From NCBI GenBank assembly GCA_015058205.1, contig SVCS01000007.1:1-45619 (forward strand): a stretch of DNA of 45,619 bases. The letters run 5' to 3'. Below the pieces are notes generated by a model. It was not told the DNA's origin, made no database searches, and saw only the letters and a list, made by a program, of their open reading frames with translations. Positions 24,341 to 39,441 of this stretch are shown here, piece after piece. This stretch comes from Clostridiales bacterium. GTDB taxonomy: Bacteria > Bacillota > Clostridia > Peptostreptococcales > Anaerovoracaceae. The position numbers and the translations under genes are program-made. Every line of letters begins with the position of its first letter. The first letter of the stretch is position 1.

Positions 24341-25900
24341 TCAAAGCCAATAATATTTCGTCAGGAAATATGTCCTGTCCCAATCAACGATTTTTCTGTC
24401 TGCTTCCTTCTCCAGATGAATATCAAATTCGTCAAAGACCATAACCTGCTTGTTCTCAGGATCATAGAGCGGCCACTCCTTCGCCTTGCCGTCGGGCGAA
24501 ATATCTGCGCTGACAGACGGATTGCCGGTTTTTATGAACTGGACCCACATCTTGCGCATGGTCTTCGCAAAGGTTTCGTCATAGACCCTTCCTTCTTCTC
24601 CGTTCAGCTCCTGATGGTCGAATACCGCCACAAGCTCTTCTCCATGTCCCGGTTCTGCTGTAAAGAAGTACGTGTAGGCTCTGCCTCCTGCCATCGTCTG
24701 GTTTTCAGACAATCTGATGAGCGGTGCATTGAACCACATCTGTTCAAACAGACGGCAGGTTTCTTCACAGGGATCGCCTTTCACGTCCTGACAGAAGCTC
24801 ATGACCAGATCTCTCTCTTCTTCCGTGAGCTGTCCGAGTTTCTTCTTCATGAGATCTGATGACCAGCTGTTAAATACTTCTTCTCCCATGATGAGAGGAA
24901 AGTAATCAAATTCATTTTTCATGCAGCCCATAAGGAAAACGATATCCTTGGCTGCGCCCTTCGCATAGGCATCATATGGATCGAGAGGCAGATAGTTCCC
25001 GTCTCTTTCCGGTGACATACGAAGGGATATGGACCTGGATGCTTCCACCAGTGTCTCCGCATCGATCTTCTGCAGATCCGACAAACTATGGCAGCCTAGC
25101 TCCGCCATCAGTTCGTCGGTGCACTCTATAGCCTGCTCGCAAGACCTGGTGAAAACAGGGAATCCACTCTCAGGAAGGACCCGCTTAAAATACGTGTGAG
25201 AACCTTCGATCAGCGGAAGCAGTGTCACGCTTCCTGCGCCGGCGGATTCACCTCCGATGGTAACCTTGTCGGGGTCGCCGCCAAAGGCGGCAATGTTTTC
25301 ATGTACCCACTTCAGCGCCATCATCTGATCCATGAGGCCCAGATTCTGCGCGTCCGGATACTCTTCGCCGCCCGGAAGGTGCGATAAATGAAAAAATCCG
25401 AAAACGCCCAGTCGATACGCAATGGAAACGACTATGATCTCCGGATTTTCTTTCACGATATTATGGCATTCAAACAAAGGACTAGCTGTCCCTCCTGCTT
25501 CGAATGCACCGCCGTGGACCCAGACCAGCACAGGTTTCTTCTCTCCGGTGCTTTCGTCTGCCTTCCAGACATCGAGGTACAGGCAGTCTTCTCCCTGATA
25601 ATACAGCTCATCCTCTTCGCCGTAGAACTTGTTCTGGCATGCACTCTTCCCATTGTAGTAAGCCTCATACACACCATCATCTGCGGCAAACTCCACCGGC
25701 GCTTTCCAGCGCAGCTCACCAACCGGCTGCCTTCCGACAAATGGAATGCCCTTGTACGCAATGATGTTGTCTGTCTTCCTGCCTACGAAGGTCCCGTTGA
25801 CACAGCGGACCGCCAGAGACTGATCGTATTCTCCGTCTGTGATCTGCTTATTCTCTCCGTATCCATACAGTGCTTTCAGTTGTTCTGCCATCTCACTCAT
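24341..25900 (-). CDS. Type B carboxylesterase, copy 1
   Basis: A 519-residue alpha/beta hydrolase of the PnbA/cholinesterase family. The oxyanion hole is HGGAFEAGG; the nucleophile is S219 in GGESAGAGS. The acid is probably E330 (GCMKNEF) and the histidine H419 (GHGEELVAVF). There is no signal peptide, so it is intracellular and acts on imported esters. AAGGTG precedes the ATG. It is the first gene of the long unit running down to at least 8338, and the phased regulatory element at 25923-26035 lies 23 bases upstream. Confidence 0.88.
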   Translation of the reverse strand: MSEMAEQLKALYGYGENKQITDGEYDQSLAVRCVNGTFVGRKTDNIIAYKGIPFVGRQPVGELRWKAPVEFAADDGVYEAYYNGKSACQNKFYGEEDELYYQGEDCLYLDVWKADESTGEKKPVLVWVHGGAFEAGGTASPLFECHNIVKENPEIIVVSIAYRLGVFGFFHLSHLPGGEEYPDAQNLGLMDQMMALKWVHENIAAFGGDPDKVTIGGESAGAGSVTLLPLIEGSHTYFKRVLPESGFPVFTRSCEQAIECTDELMAELGCHSLSDLQKIDAETLVEASRSISLRMSPERDGNYLPLDPYDAYAKGAAKDIVFLMGCMKNEFDYFPLIMGEEVFNSWSSDLMKKKLGQLTEEERDLVMSFCQDVKGDPCEETCRLFEQMWFNAPLIRLSENQTMAGGRAYTYFFTAEPGHGEELVAVFDHQELNGEEGRVYDETFAKTMRKMWVQFIKTGNPSVSADISPDGKAKEWPLYDPENKQVMVFDEFDIHLEKEADRKIVDWDRTYFLTKYYWL

Positions 25901-25922
25901 AGCATCACCTTCCCAGATATTA

Positions 25923-26035
25923 TTTTAAAACAAAATAAAGCAATCAAACAGAACATTGATTGCTTTATTTGCGTTATTATTGCTTTAATGTGGGAAAATG
26001 TTGCTCTTGGATGCAGAAAATTGCTCTTGTTTGCT
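25923..26035 (-). promoter_or_regulatory. Regulatory element A: inverted repeat plus phased TTGCT motifs
   Basis: A 13-bp inverted repeat (25933-25945 AAATAAAGCAATC; 25958-25970 GATTGCTTTATTT) is followed by TTGCT motifs at 25960, 25980, 26001, 26021 and 26031, with ATGCA at 26011: offsets 0, 20, 41, 51, 61, 71. All are about whole helical turns apart. Element B at 39105-39217 has the same layout. It stands just before the esterase start codon, so it probably carries the promoter and operators of the 17-kb catabolic operon. The inverted repeat followed by TTTTGTTTT could alternatively act as a weak terminator for the upstream SDR gene. Confidence 0.75.
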
Positions 26036-26892: not shown

Positions 26893-27837
26893 TCACATTT
26901 TCGCGCCGGAAATCTCCACGTCGATTCCCGCCTTGTCAAACAGATCTCTGATCTCCTCCATCCGCTCATGGGACGGCGCTTCGAAGGTGGTGTACTCTAT
27001 CCCTGCATTCCGCGCTTTGGAAACGCCCATCTCGTGGTATCCGAGCAGGGACACCTTCCTGACGGCGAGTTCCTTAACCAAAGCCAAGGCAGCCTGTATG
27101 GTCTCGTCATCGTCGTTCAGTCCCTTGATGAGAGGCATGCGTACCCAGATCTTGTCGTGGGTCCGCGGGTCCGCTGCCAGGGCGCGGATGTTCTCGATGA
27201 TCCGTTTGTTGCTGACGCCTGTCAGACGCTCATGGACAGCAGGATCCATGGCTTTCAGATCGTACAGTACATGGGTCACATTAGGTGCCAGGGCCAGGTC
27301 CATCAGATGCCGGGTCTCCCCAAGACCGCAGGTGTCGATGCACACACCGATTTCCTCTTGGCGGCAGGCCTCGACCAGCGCCTTTGCAAAGGCAGCATGG
27401 GCCAGGGGTTCTCCGCCGCTGATGGTCACACCGCCACCGGATTCCTGATAGAATTCCTTATCCTGCAGGACTGTCTCCATAACCTCTTCGACTGTCATCT
27501 CCTCCGCCACGTAGGTTATGGCTTTGGAATAACAGACCTTGCTGCACGCGCCGCAGGCATGGCACGCTGCGAAATCGATGGCGACGCCCTCCTCTGAAAC
27601 GGTGATGCCGCTCTCCGGGCAGACGTCCACGCATATGCCGCACCGGATGCACCGGGACGGGCTGATGATCATCTGGTTTTCCGGACGAATCATCTCCGGG
27701 TTGTGGCACCAGACGCAGCGCAGGGGACAGCCCTTCAGGAATACGGTAGACCGTATTCCCGGACCATCCTGGGTCGAAAACTTCTGTATATTACCAATGA
27801 AAGCTGTATTATTCAAGTCTGTATTGCCTTTGCTCAT
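26893..27837 (-). CDS. Glycyl radical enzyme activase (radical SAM)
   Basis: A 314-residue radical SAM protein. The S-adenosylmethionine cluster motif is C37-x3-C41-x2-C44 (GCPLRCVWC). Two ferredoxin-type clusters follow at C63/66/69/73 and C92/95/98/102, typical of activases for non-PFL glycyl radical enzymes. It installs the glycyl radical on the enzyme encoded immediately upstream. Its ATG overlaps the TGA of that gene (TGATG), so the two are translated together. Confidence 0.93.
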   Translation of the reverse strand: MSKGNTDLNNTAFIGNIQKFSTQDGPGIRSTVFLKGCPLRCVWCHNPEMIRPENQMIISPSRCIRCGICVDVCPESGITVSEEGVAIDFAACHACGACSKVCYSKAITYVAEEMTVEEVMETVLQDKEFYQESGGGVTISGGEPLAHAAFAKALVEACRQEEIGVCIDTCGLGETRHLMDLALAPNVTHVLYDLKAMDPAVHERLTGVSNKRIIENIRALAADPRTHDKIWVRMPLIKGLNDDDETIQAALALVKELAVRKVSLLGYHEMGVSKARNAGIEYTTFEAPSHERMEEIRDLFDKAGIDVEISGAKM

Positions 27838-30206
27838 CAGCAGCCTCCATGCGCTGTACGTTCAATGATGGAATCCTGCACGTGCCGATCGAGTTCTGTG
27901 AAGTACGCCAGATAGCCTGCTACACGCACGACGAGACCTCTGTATTCCTCCGGATTCTCCTGCGCAGCACGCAGTGTGGCGTCATCGACAACGTTGATCT
28001 GGATGTGCTGACCGCCTTCCTTAAAGAATGTCTTGACCACGCTCTCTATGGTATCGATACCCTTCTCGCCTTCGACACTCTTCGGGTCGAAACGAAGGTT
28101 GAACAATGCGCCTGCGTAGAAATTCTCAGGCTTCAGAGCTGCAACAGATTTGACTGTTGCGGTCGGTCCGTTGATATCGCGGCCCATCATCGGTGATGCA
28201 TTGTCGCCCAGAGATTCCCCGGCGTGTCTTCCGTCAGGTGTCGCGCCTGTCTCTTCACCATGCGGCACATTCTCAGACTGTGACATGAGCGTATAGTCGT
28301 AGTGGCCGCCGCGGGCATCCTTCCAGCTCTGCACAGTCTCTGCAACGTAGGTGCAGATGTCTTTGTTGATGGCATCTACATACGGATCGTCATTGCCGAA
28401 TTTAGGCGGCACATTGAGCAGATACTGACGAATTCTTTCGTTGTCTTTGTAGTCATTGTCCAGTACATCGATCAGTTCCTGCATGGTGATGATCTTATCC
28501 TTGAAAACGGCGTATTCGATGCCGACAATGGAGTCTGCCAGGTTCGCTTGTCCCGTTCCGAATATTCCGGCGCTGGAGTGCTTCGCGCCGCCCTCCTGCA
28601 CAGACATACCCTTATCGATGCAGCCGTCTACCGTCATGGAAGTATAGACTGCAGGAAGTCTTCTGGCTTGTTCCACCTGAACGATTCTCGATGCTTCCAC
28701 CATTCTCGTATGGATGTAGATGATCTGCTTCTTGCATGCTTCGATGATGTCTTCCTTGGATGTGAATTCACACGGATCGCCTGTATCGATTCCCAGTTTC
28801 ATGCCTGTTCTCGGATCCACGCCTCTGTGCAGAACTAACTCCAGACACTTGGCGTAGTTGACGTATCCTACATCCGGGAAGCAGTCCGCGCCGCCGCCGC
28901 CATACTGAGGCTGGGTGCATCCGACGACGTTCCAACCGAGGACTTCCTCATCAGAGCCGCCCTTGGAACGAACGATCTTCATACATACATCGTCGTTGAA
29001 GAGTCCCGGCTGGGCCATGCCTGCCTGGATCATCTCCGCTGCCTGATGGAACAGATCCTCCGGCGTCTTGTCGCTGACACGCATTGCCAGAACAGGCTGG
29101 GCCGTCTTCACATCTGCGCCTGCTGTCAGGCACATGTAGCTCAGCTTATTAGTAGCATCTTCGCCGTCCAATCCGAGGCCGCCCACCATGACGATGGCCC
29201 ACATCGGGAAGCCTGCAAAGGCCTGGGAACATTCTTTGTCTCTGACTTCGATGACTTCTCCGCACTTGAGGAAGAAGCACTCCAGGACTTCCTGGGCTTT
29301 GTCTTCGTCGAAGACACCTGCTTTCATGTCCATTTCCATGTATGGATAGAGGATCTGATCGAACCGTCCGAAGCTGCAGGCTGTCGCCGGTCCTTCTATG
29401 TGGTAAATGAGATGCACGAACCAGACGAACTGCAGGGCCTCATAAAATCCTCTCGGCGGATTCTCCGGTACGTTTCTGCAGTTGGAGGCGATCTCCAGCA
29501 GCTCAGCTTTTCTGCCCAGATCCGTTTCCTTCTCAGCCAGCTCCAGCGCTTTGTCAGCATACCTGTTGACAAAACGAATGACCGCTTCCATCACGATGAT
29601 GCCTGCTCTCCAGAAGTCCTGTTTTTCCTGGTTCTCAATTGTGTCGCCCTCGATTTCCGCGATCTTCTCTTCGCAGCGCTTGATATAGCCTCTGAATCCC
29701 TCGGACATCAGTTTCTTGTAATTCGGTACGACTTCGCCGGAGATGGTGTTGGTCTGTCCCATGTCGATGATGGAGTTTTCGTACATGGCCATGGTGTCTT
29801 CCGGAAGGATCTCATAGAGATGATCTTCGATGGCCCGTCCCTGCCAGAATTCTTCCAGACAGTCTAAGATGATCTTCTTATCCTCTTCTGTCACATCGAT
29901 TTCATCCAGCTTCCTCGTCGGGAACTCAGGAATCTCTTCCATGAGCCACTCTGTAGAGCTGTACTCCGGGAAGAGCAGCGCGCCGCGCAGTGTATAGGTA
30001 GGCACTCCGACGATCAGTTCCTCGTCGTGGATCGTGATGCTTAAGTGATCCAGAACGTATTCCAAAGTCTTAGCCCGGAACAGATAACGGGGTTCGCCTG
30101 CGAACTTCTTGTACGCCTCCGTGATGAGGAGCAGACGCTCCGGTGTAATATTCGGTCTTACTGAGAGAAATCTGTCTTTTAATCTCTGTACTCTTGGTGT
30201 AATCAT
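27837..30206 (-). CDS. Glycyl radical enzyme of unassigned substrate
   Basis: A 789-residue GRE. The radical site is G764 in RVAGYLAYF near the C-terminus, and the thiyl cysteine is C430 in VVGCTQPQ. The dehydratase, C-N lyase and isethionate lyase groups carry Cys-x-Glu here, with the glutamate as general base; this protein has Cys-Thr-Gln. The reaction therefore cannot be assigned to glycerol, propanediol, choline or hydroxyproline enzymes. AAAGGAG precedes the ATG. It lies after an APC permease and before activase and SDR, suggesting an imported amino acid or amine. No microcompartment shell genes are nearby. Confidence 0.9.
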   Translation of the reverse strand: MITPRVQRLKDRFLSVRPNITPERLLLITEAYKKFAGEPRYLFRAKTLEYVLDHLSITIHDEELIVGVPTYTLRGALLFPEYSSTEWLMEEIPEFPTRKLDEIDVTEEDKKIILDCLEEFWQGRAIEDHLYEILPEDTMAMYENSIIDMGQTNTISGEVVPNYKKLMSEGFRGYIKRCEEKIAEIEGDTIENQEKQDFWRAGIIVMEAVIRFVNRYADKALELAEKETDLGRKAELLEIASNCRNVPENPPRGFYEALQFVWFVHLIYHIEGPATACSFGRFDQILYPYMEMDMKAGVFDEDKAQEVLECFFLKCGEVIEVRDKECSQAFAGFPMWAIVMVGGLGLDGEDATNKLSYMCLTAGADVKTAQPVLAMRVSDKTPEDLFHQAAEMIQAGMAQPGLFNDDVCMKIVRSKGGSDEEVLGWNVVGCTQPQYGGGGADCFPDVGYVNYAKCLELVLHRGVDPRTGMKLGIDTGDPCEFTSKEDIIEACKKQIIYIHTRMVEASRIVQVEQARRLPAVYTSMTVDGCIDKGMSVQEGGAKHSSAGIFGTGQANLADSIVGIEYAVFKDKIITMQELIDVLDNDYKDNERIRQYLLNVPPKFGNDDPYVDAINKDICTYVAETVQSWKDARGGHYDYTLMSQSENVPHGEETGATPDGRHAGESLGDNASPMMGRDINGPTATVKSVAALKPENFYAGALFNLRFDPKSVEGEKGIDTIESVVKTFFKEGGQHIQINVVDDATLRAAQENPEEYRGLVVRVAGYLAYFTELDRHVQDSIIERTAHGGC

Positions 30207-32006: not shown

Positions 32007-32079
32007 ATTCTATAATTAGTTTGACATAAAATCTTATTATTATGATATCGGCGCCTACATCGGCTGCCGACATCAACCC

Positions 32080-33141
32080 CTAATTCTTGCCGTCCGAACC
32101 CAGCATGAATCGCAGTATTTCTTCATGACTGCGGTTGGTTTTTTCATAGGCGTCCAGAAGCTCTTTCAGCTTGTCCCTGTTTTCACCGGACTTTTCCCTG
32201 TTCTCACCGTATGAGAAGGAGAGGTTTTTGATCGAATTCTGAATGATCGGCATCGCCTCGGCGCTGTCCATCTCGAAGAGGATCTCCGCGGAATTGCCTT
32301 TGATTCTGTCGGCGTACATCCTCCTGTACTCCTCAGGATGACACCCGAACCATTTCTCGAAGAACTTCTCGTAGTAGGCCGTTGTCGAAAACCCTACCTG
32401 CCCGGCGATGCTGCTTATTTTTTCCGACCCGCTGAGCAGTATTTTTTCCGATTCCTCTACCCGCGCAAAGGCCAGAAGCTCTCTGAATCCCAAACCTGTT
32501 CCGGCCGTGATGAGTTTCGACATATAGCCTTCGCTGAAGTGTTCTTTTTCGGCCAGCTCCCGCAGCGTCAGTTTCTCGCTATGATGCTCATAGATATAAT
32601 CTATGATTCTCCCCAGCCGTTCTCCGATCTCAGGATAATCATATTTCTTGTGCATCACGATTCTTCCTTCAAAATAAAAGGACTTGAAGTTCTTATCACA
32701 GTAATTGAGCGCGTCTGTCATCATATTGATATTCATCAATTTATGACCGGGAGGCGCGGTGATGTGATTCAGGGCTATTTTCAGCAGCACATTTCGCAGC
32801 ACGATGATTTCTTTATTGCCCTTCTCTTTTCCCATGGTTCGGTACACGTTATTTGATAGTGTCGGGAACTGTCTGGTGAAATAATCCGCGTTGATCTGAA
32901 TCATCAAAACGACGTTGTCTTTGGAGCAGTCGTAGATTCCATGGACTTCACTGTCATTGATGACAAAGATATCCCCCTGCTGCATTCTGTAAATACTCGA
33001 TCCGCATTTCAGGGTAACGGATCCTCTGAGCACGTAAATAAATTCATGATCGTTGTGATAATGAAGGGGGTAATTCTCAATATTCACGATGCGGATGTTC
33101 ATCGGCATATCATCCAGATAGCCGGCTTTTTCCTCCAGCAT
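32080..33141 (-). CDS. AraC-family transcriptional regulator (copy 1)
   Basis: 353 residues. The N-terminal cupin sensor contains YPLHYHNDHEF and MQQGDIFVINDSEVHG. The C-terminal double helix-turn-helix runs from LTLRELAEKEHFSEGYMSKL to VGFSTTAYYEKFFEKWFGCHPEEYRR, followed by a long tail. It should bind a small effector in the cupin barrel and regulate nearby catabolic genes. AGGAG precedes the ATG. It follows esterase copy 2 by 41 bases and lies just before the permease-GRE unit, its likely target. Confidence 0.88.
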   Translation of the reverse strand: MLEEKAGYLDDMPMNIRIVNIENYPLHYHNDHEFIYVLRGSVTLKCGSSIYRMQQGDIFVINDSEVHGIYDCSKDNVVLMIQINADYFTRQFPTLSNNVYRTMGKEKGNKEIIVLRNVLLKIALNHITAPPGHKLMNINMMTDALNYCDKNFKSFYFEGRIVMHKKYDYPEIGERLGRIIDYIYEHHSEKLTLRELAEKEHFSEGYMSKLITAGTGLGFRELLAFARVEESEKILLSGSEKISSIAGQVGFSTTAYYEKFFEKWFGCHPEEYRRMYADRIKGNSAEILFEMDSAEAMPIIQNSIKNLSFSYGENREKSGENRDKLKELLDAYEKTNRSHEEILRFMLGSDGKN

Positions 33142-36465: not shown

Positions 36466-37593
36466 TTATTGCTTTTTCCTGATCCGCAGGATCAGCTCAT
36501 CACAATTGCTGTCTAAATTGATGGTCTTATTCTTTCCATTCAGCTTCGCTATCCGGTTGCTGACGTTGTTGTTTCCGGTTTCTACAGAAAGAATCTCATA
36601 GTTTCCCTCCGGCAGATTGACCACGACACTGTATCCGCGTCCGGACTGGGCCATGCTGCCTTCTCCCGCTTTCAGGCTGAGATCTTCAAGGTCGACCTCT
36701 TCCTCTTCGAAATCTTTATATGCGACGCTCTCCTTCAGGTTACGGCGCCGGTACTCGGCAGGTGAGACACCATAATATCTCGGAAATGTTTCATTATATG
36801 ATCTGACAGAGGAGAATCCGTGTTTCGCGGCTACCTCCGCAATCGTCATCTCGCTTCCGAGCAGATCAATGACGGACTCTTCTGATCTGCAGTATGACAG
36901 GGCCTGCTTCAGTGTGTATCCGAAGGTGCGCTTCATATAATGAGACAGATAGTATTTGCTCACATACAGCTCTGCACTGATTGTATCCAGCCGTATGGTC
37001 TCATCGTGATGATAGAACAGATAATTGAAAACACTGGTCAGTCTCTCATGATCTTTATCGGATCCCTGCACTGTGGTAATGTCTTCCTTCGTGTTCAAAA
37101 ACGCTACGCTCATCACCTTCTGCACATCCGGAAAGATTTTTTTCATCTGCCGGAGCATCTTTTCTGTGGTCGCATCCGGCATGACGCTCATCATGATCCA
37201 TTCAAATACCTCTTTTTTCAGGCGGAGGTACTCCTTTGTGTCCGCAACTATATGCACATTTGACGAGAGTAAACCATCATTTTCATCGATGTATTCCTCG
37301 TCGATATGAATGGTAGTCACAACGGTATCCGGCATGATATTCTCAACTGAATGAATGCAGTATGGGTCGTGGGCGATGAACTGCCCTTCTTTCACTGTTT
37401 CCACCAGATTAAAGGCACTGACCAGTATTGCCCCCTTATGCACATACATGATCTCCACACCATCGTGAAAATGATGTGGGTGATATGTGTTTCTGGTCGT
37501 TTTGAAAGAGAGCCCTCTGAATTTCGTTTCTTCTTCGGCAGGTATGCTCGGTATATAGAGTGGGCTCGTATGATAATTTCGATAATCAATCAT
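36466..37593 (-). CDS. AraC-family transcriptional regulator (copy 2)
   Basis: 375 residues. The cupin sensor (HHFHDGVEIMYVHKG, IAHDPYCIHSVEN) is followed by AraC helix-turn-helix motifs (LDTISAELYVSKYYLSHYMKR; IAEVAAKHGFSSVRSYNETFPRYYG). A C-terminal beta-rich extension of about 80 residues follows, which is unusual. GGAGG lies 10 bases before the ATG. A TTGCTTTATT word overlaps its -10 box (37622-37634), so it may regulate itself and could be the protein that reads elements A and B. Confidence 0.87.
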   Translation of the reverse strand: MIDYRNYHTSPLYIPSIPAEEETKFRGLSFKTTRNTYHPHHFHDGVEIMYVHKGAILVSAFNLVETVKEGQFIAHDPYCIHSVENIMPDTVVTTIHIDEEYIDENDGLLSSNVHIVADTKEYLRLKKEVFEWIMMSVMPDATTEKMLRQMKKIFPDVQKVMSVAFLNTKEDITTVQGSDKDHERLTSVFNYLFYHHDETIRLDTISAELYVSKYYLSHYMKRTFGYTLKQALSYCRSEESVIDLLGSEMTIAEVAAKHGFSSVRSYNETFPRYYGVSPAEYRRRNLKESVAYKDFEEEEVDLEDLSLKAGEGSMAQSGRGYSVVVNLPEGNYEILSVETGNNNVSNRIAKLNGKNKTINLDSNCDELILRIRKKQ

Positions 37594-37673: not shown

Positions 37674-38984
37674 TTACAGAAGCATTCTTCCGTGATCCAC
37701 AACGAGTTCGCCGCCCATGTAGATATACTCAATGACCTCGTTATCCTTGAAGACACGGACATCTTCGGTTGGGTCTTTGCTTACGACCAGAAGGTCTGCC
37801 AGCTTGCCCTCTTCAATGGTTCCAATGGCGTTCTCCAGGCCCAGTATTTCAGAATTGATCTTTGTGGCAGAGCGAATGACCTGATCAGCAGGCATGCCGC
37901 AGTCCTGCATGCACTCCAGTTCCAGAACGCCGTACCAACCGTAAGGGGTCGATTTCTCAAAGCATGTGTCGGATCCCAAGCCGATCTTGATTCCGTTTTC
38001 ATATGCATGAAGGAAGGCAGCCTTGACTTCTTCCACTTCCTCGAGATCCGCAGCCTCATGGTCGACATTGCTGAGCAGATCCCTCTGGAAGAACTTCGGC
38101 AGGGTTTCATCCAGGAAATCTGTAAAATCAGATGATGTAATATCTTCGATCCATTTGACCAAAAGACGCATCGTCGGAACCAGATAAACGTTGTGTTCCT
38201 TCATCAGATCGCACAAGAACGGCGCATATCCGTCACAATGCTCGATCGAGTCAACGCCCGCTTCAATGCATACCTTTGACAGTTCCGGGTTCTCGCAGTG
38301 AGCCAGAACCTTCGTGCCTTCGATGAGTTTCGCTTCTTCGCATATGGCGCGGATTTCTTCTTCTGTGTAGTGGATGTCAGTATAGCGGTCGATATAGTTG
38401 TTTCCTCCGCCCGTTGCCCAGAACTTGATCTGATCCGCTCCGGAACGGAAGATCTTTCTCACGGTCTTCCTACATTCGTCTGCGCCGTCTGCACGGTAGG
38501 CAACCATATTGTTCTTTTCTTCGAAGTCGAGATCCTCGAACATGGTAACTTCCGCATGTCCGGCAGTCCGGGCGAGTCCTCTGCCGCAGGCGACGATACG
38601 AGGACCGACAACACCCGGCACATTGAAGGCTCTCTTCAGGTAGGTTCCGTTTTCAGAGATATCACGCACGCTGGTGAATCCGTATTTCAGCAGACGCAGG
38701 GCCTGACTGTAGCTGTGGGTCAATGCCGCTGAATACTCGACGATGCCCCAGTATTTCAAGTCCGTAATACCGGTAATATGCACGTGGGAATCGATGAGTC
38801 CCGGCATGACATATTTCCCCGGCAGACTGATCTTCTCTAAAGTATCATCCTTGAGTTCCGCTGAGGGGCATACTTTCTCAATACGCCCGTCGCTGATAAT
38901 GACCGCCTGATCAGGAACAGGTCTTCCTCCGTTACCATCGATGACGGCAACATCTGTTATGGCAAATCTCTTACTTGTCTTCAT
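37674..38984 (-). CDS. Amidohydrolase, imidazolonepropionase/prolidase-like
   Basis: A 436-residue amidohydrolase of a different subgroup from the YtcJ copies. Ligands: HVH in MPGLIDSHVHITG, the lysine in QIKFWATGGG (probably carboxylated), histidines in LAHCEN and SIEHCDG, and the aspartate in LGSDTCF. This binuclear pattern is that of Xaa-Pro/Xaa-Arg dipeptidases and imidazolonepropionase-like enzymes, so a dipeptide or N-acyl amino acid is a reasonable substrate. AAAGGA precedes the ATG. A leader of about 120 bases separates it from element B. Confidence 0.85.
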   Translation of the reverse strand: MKTSKRFAITDVAVIDGNGGRPVPDQAVIISDGRIEKVCPSAELKDDTLEKISLPGKYVMPGLIDSHVHITGITDLKYWGIVEYSAALTHSYSQALRLLKYGFTSVRDISENGTYLKRAFNVPGVVGPRIVACGRGLARTAGHAEVTMFEDLDFEEKNNMVAYRADGADECRKTVRKIFRSGADQIKFWATGGGNNYIDRYTDIHYTEEEIRAICEEAKLIEGTKVLAHCENPELSKVCIEAGVDSIEHCDGYAPFLCDLMKEHNVYLVPTMRLLVKWIEDITSSDFTDFLDETLPKFFQRDLLSNVDHEAADLEEVEEVKAAFLHAYENGIKIGLGSDTCFEKSTPYGWYGVLELECMQDCGMPADQVIRSATKINSEILGLENAIGTIEEGKLADLLVVSKDPTEDVRVFKDNEVIEYIYMGGELVVDHGRMLL

Positions 38985-39104
38985 GCTGCATCAGTCCTTT
39001 CTGCACAATGAGTGCGGTCGTTCTTCTGTACTGCTTGTGATATGTCTTTCTGCGACTTCGCAATAAATGCTGTCCTATTAGAATAGCGATTCTGTCTGTC
39101 GATA

Positions 39105-39217
39105 TTTTAAAACAAAATAAAGCAATCAAACAGAACGTGGATTGCTTTATTTACGTAAAAATTGCTTTAATGTAGTAAAAGGTTGCTATGAATTGCGGGA
39201 AGTTGCTTTTGCATGCT
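39105..39217 (-). promoter_or_regulatory. Regulatory element B: inverted repeat plus phased TTGCT motifs
   Basis: A near copy of element A. Over 83 bases (39105-39187 against 25923-26005) I count 74 matches with no gaps. The 13-bp inverted repeat is at 39115-39127 and 39140-39152. TGC-core motifs are at 39142, 39162, 39183, 39193, 39203 and 39213, giving offsets 0, 20, 41, 51, 61, 71. The remaining part of the gap 38985-39104 is the leader of the amidohydrolase gene and shows only a small TGCGA/TCGCA palindrome. Confidence 0.75.
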
Positions 39218-39225
39218 GCCGATTT

Positions 39226-39441
39226 TCAGTCTTCGCCCTTTTCTTCCTTCTCTTCCTTCACTTTTCTGAATAGCTGTCGAAAAAAATCCGGAGAGCTCTT
39301 GTAAGACTTGTCCTTCAGGGCATAGGTCTCCCCGCCGTTCTTCGGCTTGATCACCGTCTCCCCCTTATTGCGGCGCTCCCGCTCAAAGTCCTTCTGCAGG
39401 TCCGCCAGAGTTATGATTTTGTCGGTGTTGTTGTTGGTCAT
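39226..39441 (-). CDS. Small charged hypothetical protein (71 aa)
   Basis: A hydrophilic, Lys/Glu-rich protein with a C-terminal run of Glu and Lys, likely helical. AAGGA lies 9 bases before the ATG, which supports a real gene. No family recognised. It is an isolated gene between the endolysin remnant and element B. Confidence 0.5.
   Translation of the reverse strand: MTNNNTDKIITLADLQKDFERERRNKGETVIKPKNGGETYALKDKSYKSSPDFFRQLFRKVKEEKEEKGED

Follow-up and report, generated by a model that had tools for sequence, protein, structure and literature searches.

The AraC operator I1-I2 is a direct repeat with a period of about 21 bp. Four molecules of MelR are reportedly found at the E. coli melR promoter; MelR sites are arranged differently from an even direct phasing and work with CRP. 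An AraC-type domain places its two recognition helices in neighbouring major grooves, and the MtlR site reads AGTGC-N5-AGTAT-N7-AGTGC-N5-AGGAT, according to the available part of one paper (PMC4514859). The accessible sections of a second describe AraC-family direct-repeat motifs with a 21-bp period for rhamnose regulators of Bacillales, Bacteroides and Enterococcus (PMC3870299). Tandem-repeat AraC-type sites also lie upstream of mapped starts in Caldicellulosiruptor carbohydrate regulons, where the excerpted report predicts that the regulators are activators (PMC8579813).

Here we analysed a stretch of 45,619 nucleotides from a Clostridiales bacterium (the window), which contains two elements, A and B, with four direct AGCAA boxes each. 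Comparison of sequences makes it likely that both are AraC-dependent promoters with an extended operator, from which a regulator, AraC2, would activate its own and the neighbouring catabolic operons. The features around the two elements are:

25921..26035, minus strand: array A, with four AGCAA boxes and, after them, promoter-like TTTTGTTTTAAAATA; precedes the EST1-AH5-transporter run
25922..25927, minus strand: putative -10 hexamer TAAAAT of promoter A
25933..25970, unstranded: inverted repeat of A, AAATAAAGCAATCA / TGATTGCTTTATTT; a scan calls it terminator-like on both strands
24341..25900, minus strand: EST1, carboxylesterase, first gene after array A
39103..39217, minus strand: array B, layout as in A; head of the AH6-AraC2-EST3-EST2-AraC1 run
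39104..39109, minus strand: putative -10 hexamer TAAAAT of promoter B
39115..39152, unstranded: corresponding inverted repeat in B, placed from the ungapped alignment to A and not called by the scan
39226..39441, minus strand: small gene of 71 aa, ending just upstream of array B
37674..38984, minus strand: AH6, amidohydrolase, first gene after array B

EST1, EST2, AH6, AAperm, GRE, its activase, SDR and both AraC proteins were named from Pfam, and AH5 (weakly), MFS2 and g06 from NCBIfam. EST3, MFS1 and AH1-AH4 are labels given by sequence likeness to the named genes and by cross-matches.

The earlier note had paired A (25923-26035) with B (39105-39217). Recomputing returned the same coordinates, the 113-bp length and a gapless alignment with 93 of 113 positions identical (82%) and 74 of 83 in the core; the TGC cores likewise fell at offsets 0, 20, 41, 51, 61 and 71 in each element, as had been claimed. 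Because the surrounding genes taken as real lie on the minus strand (plus-strand frames across A run opposite), we read the array as direct AGCAA boxes on the minus strand, where A and B both have four boxes at 20, 21 and 20 bp. Element A carries an extra AGCAA 10 bp upstream of its first box. In every one of the seven aligned arrays the first unit has a GCA at +10; in the other units this motif is weaker or absent. None of 5000 dinucleotide shuffles of A, 5000 of B or 200 of the whole window produced four AGCAA in a chain with 20-21 bp steps. The 20-mer that contains one arm of the inverted repeat occurs twice in the window, both times as an exact match, where 0.01 occurrences are expected at up to 3 mismatches. 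No third array was detected in the same genome at E<=0.001 (1.85 Mb, 123 contigs, 94% complete).

BLAST searches of 49 genus genomes located arrays in G000 (two), G009 (two) and G033 (three). A sequence-only model of these seven, run on seven chosen genomes, added an eighth on contig C25 of G009 (E 2.5e-9), giving eight arrays in 3 of the 49 genomes. A signature pattern matched nine times in the 49 genomes, at the eight arrays and at one place in G025 that is not array-like; the reversed pattern, used as a control, had 0 matches there. Among 296 family genomes, a draw from which G009 was evidently absent, the model matched strongly in G000 and G033 only. One of 18 weak family matches was array A on the opposite strand, and the 16 with loci of their own (L058-L073) were read and taken for chance. 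Searching the genome and its relatives for the pattern, as the earlier note had proposed, produced six further arrays outside the own genome. The genes that follow the arrays are EST1 (G000 and G009), AH5 (G033), AH6 (all three genomes), an MFS2-like transporter (G033) and a small gene (C25 of G009). The C25 array has two AGCAA boxes and one AGTAA and is without the GTTCTGTTTG and TTTTAAAATA blocks, which are invariant in 7 of the 8 arrays.

A strict array pattern was also run across the genome contigs and gave at least 117 stretches, ranked by open frame. From these at least 117, we read 59 with a covering frame of <110 codons and the 16 with the least repeated spacers (10 of them with longer frames); most were simple or tandem repeats or lay inside long frames. 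The nearest look-alike among the matches listed is an intergenic stretch of Psychrobacillus lasiicapitis (L105, 4010-4075) with four AGCAA at array spacing, then TTATAATAAC, and without the rest of the core. It is possibly a look-alike or one of the Bacillaceae repeats. Contigs L132, L139, L142, L162 and L170 of Bacillus infantis carry 20-bp tandem arrays of TTAGCAACTTT-like units with no covering open frame.

The direct-repeat half-sites are about 21 bp apart, spaced 20, 21 and 20 bp, or 20, 21 and 21 bp in array D, which has a 1-bp insertion. In the four divergent arrays (A, B, C and D), the three upstream AGCAA boxes are invariant in 14 of their 15 columns, compared with 16 of 47 columns for the spacers (p 6e-5); the arrays share ancestry and their columns are not independent, so p-values serve as guides only. 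The C25 array is identical to A at 22 of 23 motif positions (three boxes plus the inverted arm) and at 37 of 68 others, that is, 1/23 motif and 31/68 non-motif positions differ (p 1.4e-4, again only a guide, as aligning the two on their boxes itself produces some of the contrast). That way of aligning does not account for the gapless register of the three boxes with the inverted arm and the -10-like hexamer; the spacings in C25 are 21 and 20 bp, and its AGTAA box sits at the expected place. The earlier note had taken the phase kept beyond the core as a mark of selection on motif position. Inside the window this phase amounts to no more than ungapped homology, and it is the spacing kept in related genomes that argues for selection. 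The note's array of motifs at six offsets, longer than the usual two half-sites, is corrected downwards. Since an AraC-type domain contacts two successive major grooves, the motifs that fall in between at 10-bp steps are best taken as second boxes, and the array itself as about four half-sites and not as six separate sites.

On the minus strand, the element consists of the AGCAA boxes followed by GTTCTGTTTGATTGCTTTATTTTGTTTTAAAATA. The AT-rich end TTTTAAAATA, common to seven of the eight arrays, closes the array before the next gene. Conservation in the seven-array alignment ends after TAAAATA, ahead of downstream genes that differ, which favours the reading of the arrays as putative promoter elements that the earlier note had put forward. 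Within about 25 bp after array A come GGAAGG, which resembles a ribosome-binding site, and the EST1 start. With TAAAAT taken as the -10 hexamer and set as -12 to -7, the boxes would start at about -110, -90, -69 and -49 in A, B and C, at -111, -91, -70 and -49 in D, and at -90, -69 and -49 in C25 (where the hexamer at the -10 place is TAGACT), a class II AraC geometry. No good -35 hexamer common to all arrays was found. A consensus promoter scan called a different promoter in A (TTGATT-17-AATAAT) and no minus-strand promoter in B.

Could the phase come from shared ancestry, the elements being recent duplicates such as copies of a mobile repeat? The gapless likeness of A and B would fit, as would the 71-aa gene upstream of B: its homologues precede the B array of G009 and array D of G033, so that array and neighbour may be copied together (in G005, no array follows the homologue). 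However, all eight copies precede genes of similar kinds, the seven aligned ones stay conserved only up to the -10-like hexamer, C25 has kept its motif columns while its spacers diverged, and D has taken its 1-bp insertion. We therefore regard recent duplication as improbable, and a mobile repeat or insertion-sequence end was judged unlikely because the copies are promoter-positioned. The boxes are also coding-strand direct repeats downstream of a co-directional gene, so a read-through RNA would contain AGCAA repeats, which might be spaced sites for an RNA-binding protein. We give this very little credence, as the spacing tracks the helical repeat of DNA (20-21 bp, with second boxes near 10 bp) and conservation ends at the -10-like hexamer. 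An Rfam scan of the window likewise had 0 matches at the gathering score, although RNA-protein sites need not form an Rfam family.

The chances are about even that the inverted repeat is an intrinsic terminator of the upstream gene with the AGCAA operator sites beside it, an arrangement compatible with AraC2-dependent promoters. Hairpins predicted in the RNA, at -18.3 kcal/mol in A, -14.1 in B, -15.8 in C and -10.5 in D, with z from -5.9 to -1.6 and T-rich tails, point to a terminator, as do the calls on both strands in A. So does the 3' arm of D, where the GC core is gone (TTGTT) and G-U pairing is kept; this is easier to reconcile with pairing than with a protein half-site. The same core persists in the direct boxes of arrays A to D, and its loss from the arm leans towards a hairpin. 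On the other hand, only 3 of the 15 pairs in the A stem are G-C, the repeat in B escaped the scan, the D hairpin is the weak one (z -1.6), and covariation is not significant (48 of 500 shuffles score at least as high). A terminator would also leave the phased boxes and the GTTCTGTTTG/TTTTAAAATA blocks unexplained. In A, the 5' arm on the minus strand contains the promoter-proximal box, and the repeat may be either a terminator-like hairpin or an inverted half-site.

Two AraC-family genes, labelled AraC1 and AraC2 in this analysis, belong to the run headed by array B:

36466..37593, minus strand: AraC2, AraC-family regulator (HTH_18, E 1e-15), second gene after array B; candidate array binder
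32080..33141, minus strand: AraC1, AraC-family regulator with a cupin-type sensor domain, last gene of the B-headed run
32008..32044, minus strand: AraC1-type two-half-site motif (CATAATAATAAGATTTTATGTCAAACTAATTATAGAA), upstream of the AAperm-GRE run; putatively the site of AraC1

The earlier note had proposed both proteins as binders. AraC-type control of the arrays is supported, and AraC2 is the likelier binder, with the operons assigned to AraC1 carrying another motif. AraC2 is present at >=65% identity in 4 of the 49 genomes, namely G000, G009 (two copies), G033 and G013, and the first three have arrays. An araC2 gene lies on the contig of each of the eight arrays, and in all three array genomes araC2 sits inside a run headed by an array, which favours AraC2; in G033, a 475-bp gap with an amidohydrolase fragment separates AH6 from araC2. 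The second AraC2 of G009 (65%) shares contig C25 with an array, and no separate AraC1 match was retained in that 14-kb stretch, which again favours AraC2. AraC1 orthologues occur at >=74% in five of the 49 genomes and at about 59% in two more. In all seven, AraC1 adjoins its own type of motif, with two half-sites 21 bp apart and a CTAATTATAGAA-like end, and four of the seven (G005, G013, G028 and G029) have no detected array, a further reason to prefer AraC2. Copies of this motif lie at L046 5830 and 3715, L047 16404, L049 17803, L050 4161, L051 about 2720-2760, L053 9688 and 14011, and L054 11436 and 15732; several are followed by a palindrome around TTATTAAAATAA and a T run.

That AraC1 and not AraC2 binds the arrays is rather unlikely for these reasons. 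Its orthologues are, however, present at >=80% in all three array genomes, the AraC1-type sites of G028 and G029 likewise start with GCAA, and the G009 AraC1, being on another contig, could act there in trans. Counts alone do not separate the two proteins (co-occurrence with arrays, 2.2e-4 for AraC2 vs 5.4e-4 for AraC1). Against AraC2 stands G013, which has the protein (69%, recognition helices alike by eye) and no detected array. G013 has no AH6 match, its EST3 match runs to the contig end and its AraC2 follows an activase gene, so an array may have been lost or left unassembled. AH6 itself (E<=1e-40) was matched in the three array genomes and in 0 of the other four among seven genomes searched. 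Searches of 296 family genomes (E<=1e-60) and 393 order genomes (E<=1e-50) found AraC2 in G000 and G033 only; the known carriers G009 and G013 were evidently outside both draws, so that these draws miss cases.

AraC2 continues for about 90 residues after its DNA-binding domain (window 36466-36741). A Pfam scan of the C-terminal 91 residues found nothing, and a single-sequence structure prediction of AraC2 was unusable (mean pLDDT 36.8). Separately, a scan for 5-mer chains at the AraC loci L008-L044 gave a chain at L022 that was absent from the other 12 upstream regions read, and it was rejected. At 11 of 13 loci (L017, L018, L019, L021, L022, L023, L025, L026, L028, L031 and L036), TGTGGATAA or TTATCCACA, which we take to be DnaA-box-like, precedes a conserved AraC-like gene of about 515 codons at a distance of up to about 250 bp. 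This stretch is possibly a replication origin.

Gene order and gaps place AH6-AraC2-EST3-EST2-AraC1 under array B, EST1-AH5-transporters-amidohydrolases under array A, and AAperm-GRE-activase-SDR under the AraC1-type site. In G033, AraC1 closes the run headed by array D, and array C is followed by AH6, then the gap with the amidohydrolase fragment, then AraC2. Also in G033 (L047 8811-9022; L004), nothing of EST1 is left downstream of array A but a short piece that looks by eye like its 3' end, which puts the array next to AH5. This anatomy suggests self-activation of AraC2 and a cascade from AraC2 to AraC1. With TAAAAT as the putative -10 and half-sites starting at about -49, -69, -90 and -110, AraC2 would occupy the four boxes as two dimers in tandem, of which the proximal one would contact RNA polymerase (class II activation). 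It would switch on the B run, its own gene included (positive autoregulation), together with the EST1-AH5-transporter-amidohydrolase run of array A. AraC1 made from the B run would then act on the AAperm-GRE run via its own two-half-site operator, and the inverted repeat, overlapping the promoter, may also terminate read-through from the upstream gene. More tentatively, the four-box array may be a track for two AraC2 dimers, or a longer chain, on one DNA face. It could then work as a cooperative, sharp and self-reinforcing switch, with a terminator-like hairpin insulating the promoter and the second AraC protein downstream in the cascade; we consider this possible but less likely than not. As for the GRE (window 27837-30206), its active-site loop reads C-T-Q-P-Q, compared with C-V-E-P-Q and C-I-E-P-Q in two solved relatives, and the loop Gln is kept in all seven orthologues read (window, L045, L047, L049, L051, L053 and L054).

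The locus compactly brings together a probable AraC-family operator that has double the usual half-sites, in a phase kept across related genomes, and, beside another AraC protein of the cluster, a contrasting operator with two. Such a pair would let the effect of the extra half-sites on cooperativity, threshold and range be tested directly. The locus also outlines regulation in two steps for a cluster that encodes esterases, amidohydrolases and a glycyl radical enzyme. A four-box direct array of this kind was not found in the open-licence literature, of which a part was sampled. MelR at melR/melAB resembles the arrays in having more than two AraC-family sites at one catabolic promoter region; in the arrays, all four boxes are direct and evenly phased. 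The direct-repeat operators of the family (AraC I1-I2, the rhamnose regulators and MtlR) share with the arrays half-sites about two turns apart. For MtlR, the available part of the source also gives each half-site two boxes 10 bp apart and a site that ends near the -35 region, a layout that the arrays may share. The arrays differ from these three in having four half-sites instead of two and a terminator-like inverted repeat across the putative core promoter. The Caldicellulosiruptor sites, in the accessible portion of their description (PMC8579813), are likewise AraC-type tandem repeats that precede mapped promoters of a catabolic regulon in a Gram-positive bacterium, but consist of two elements with a linker, whereas the arrays here have four boxes. 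The element is best filed as a longer version of a known type of AraC-family operator.
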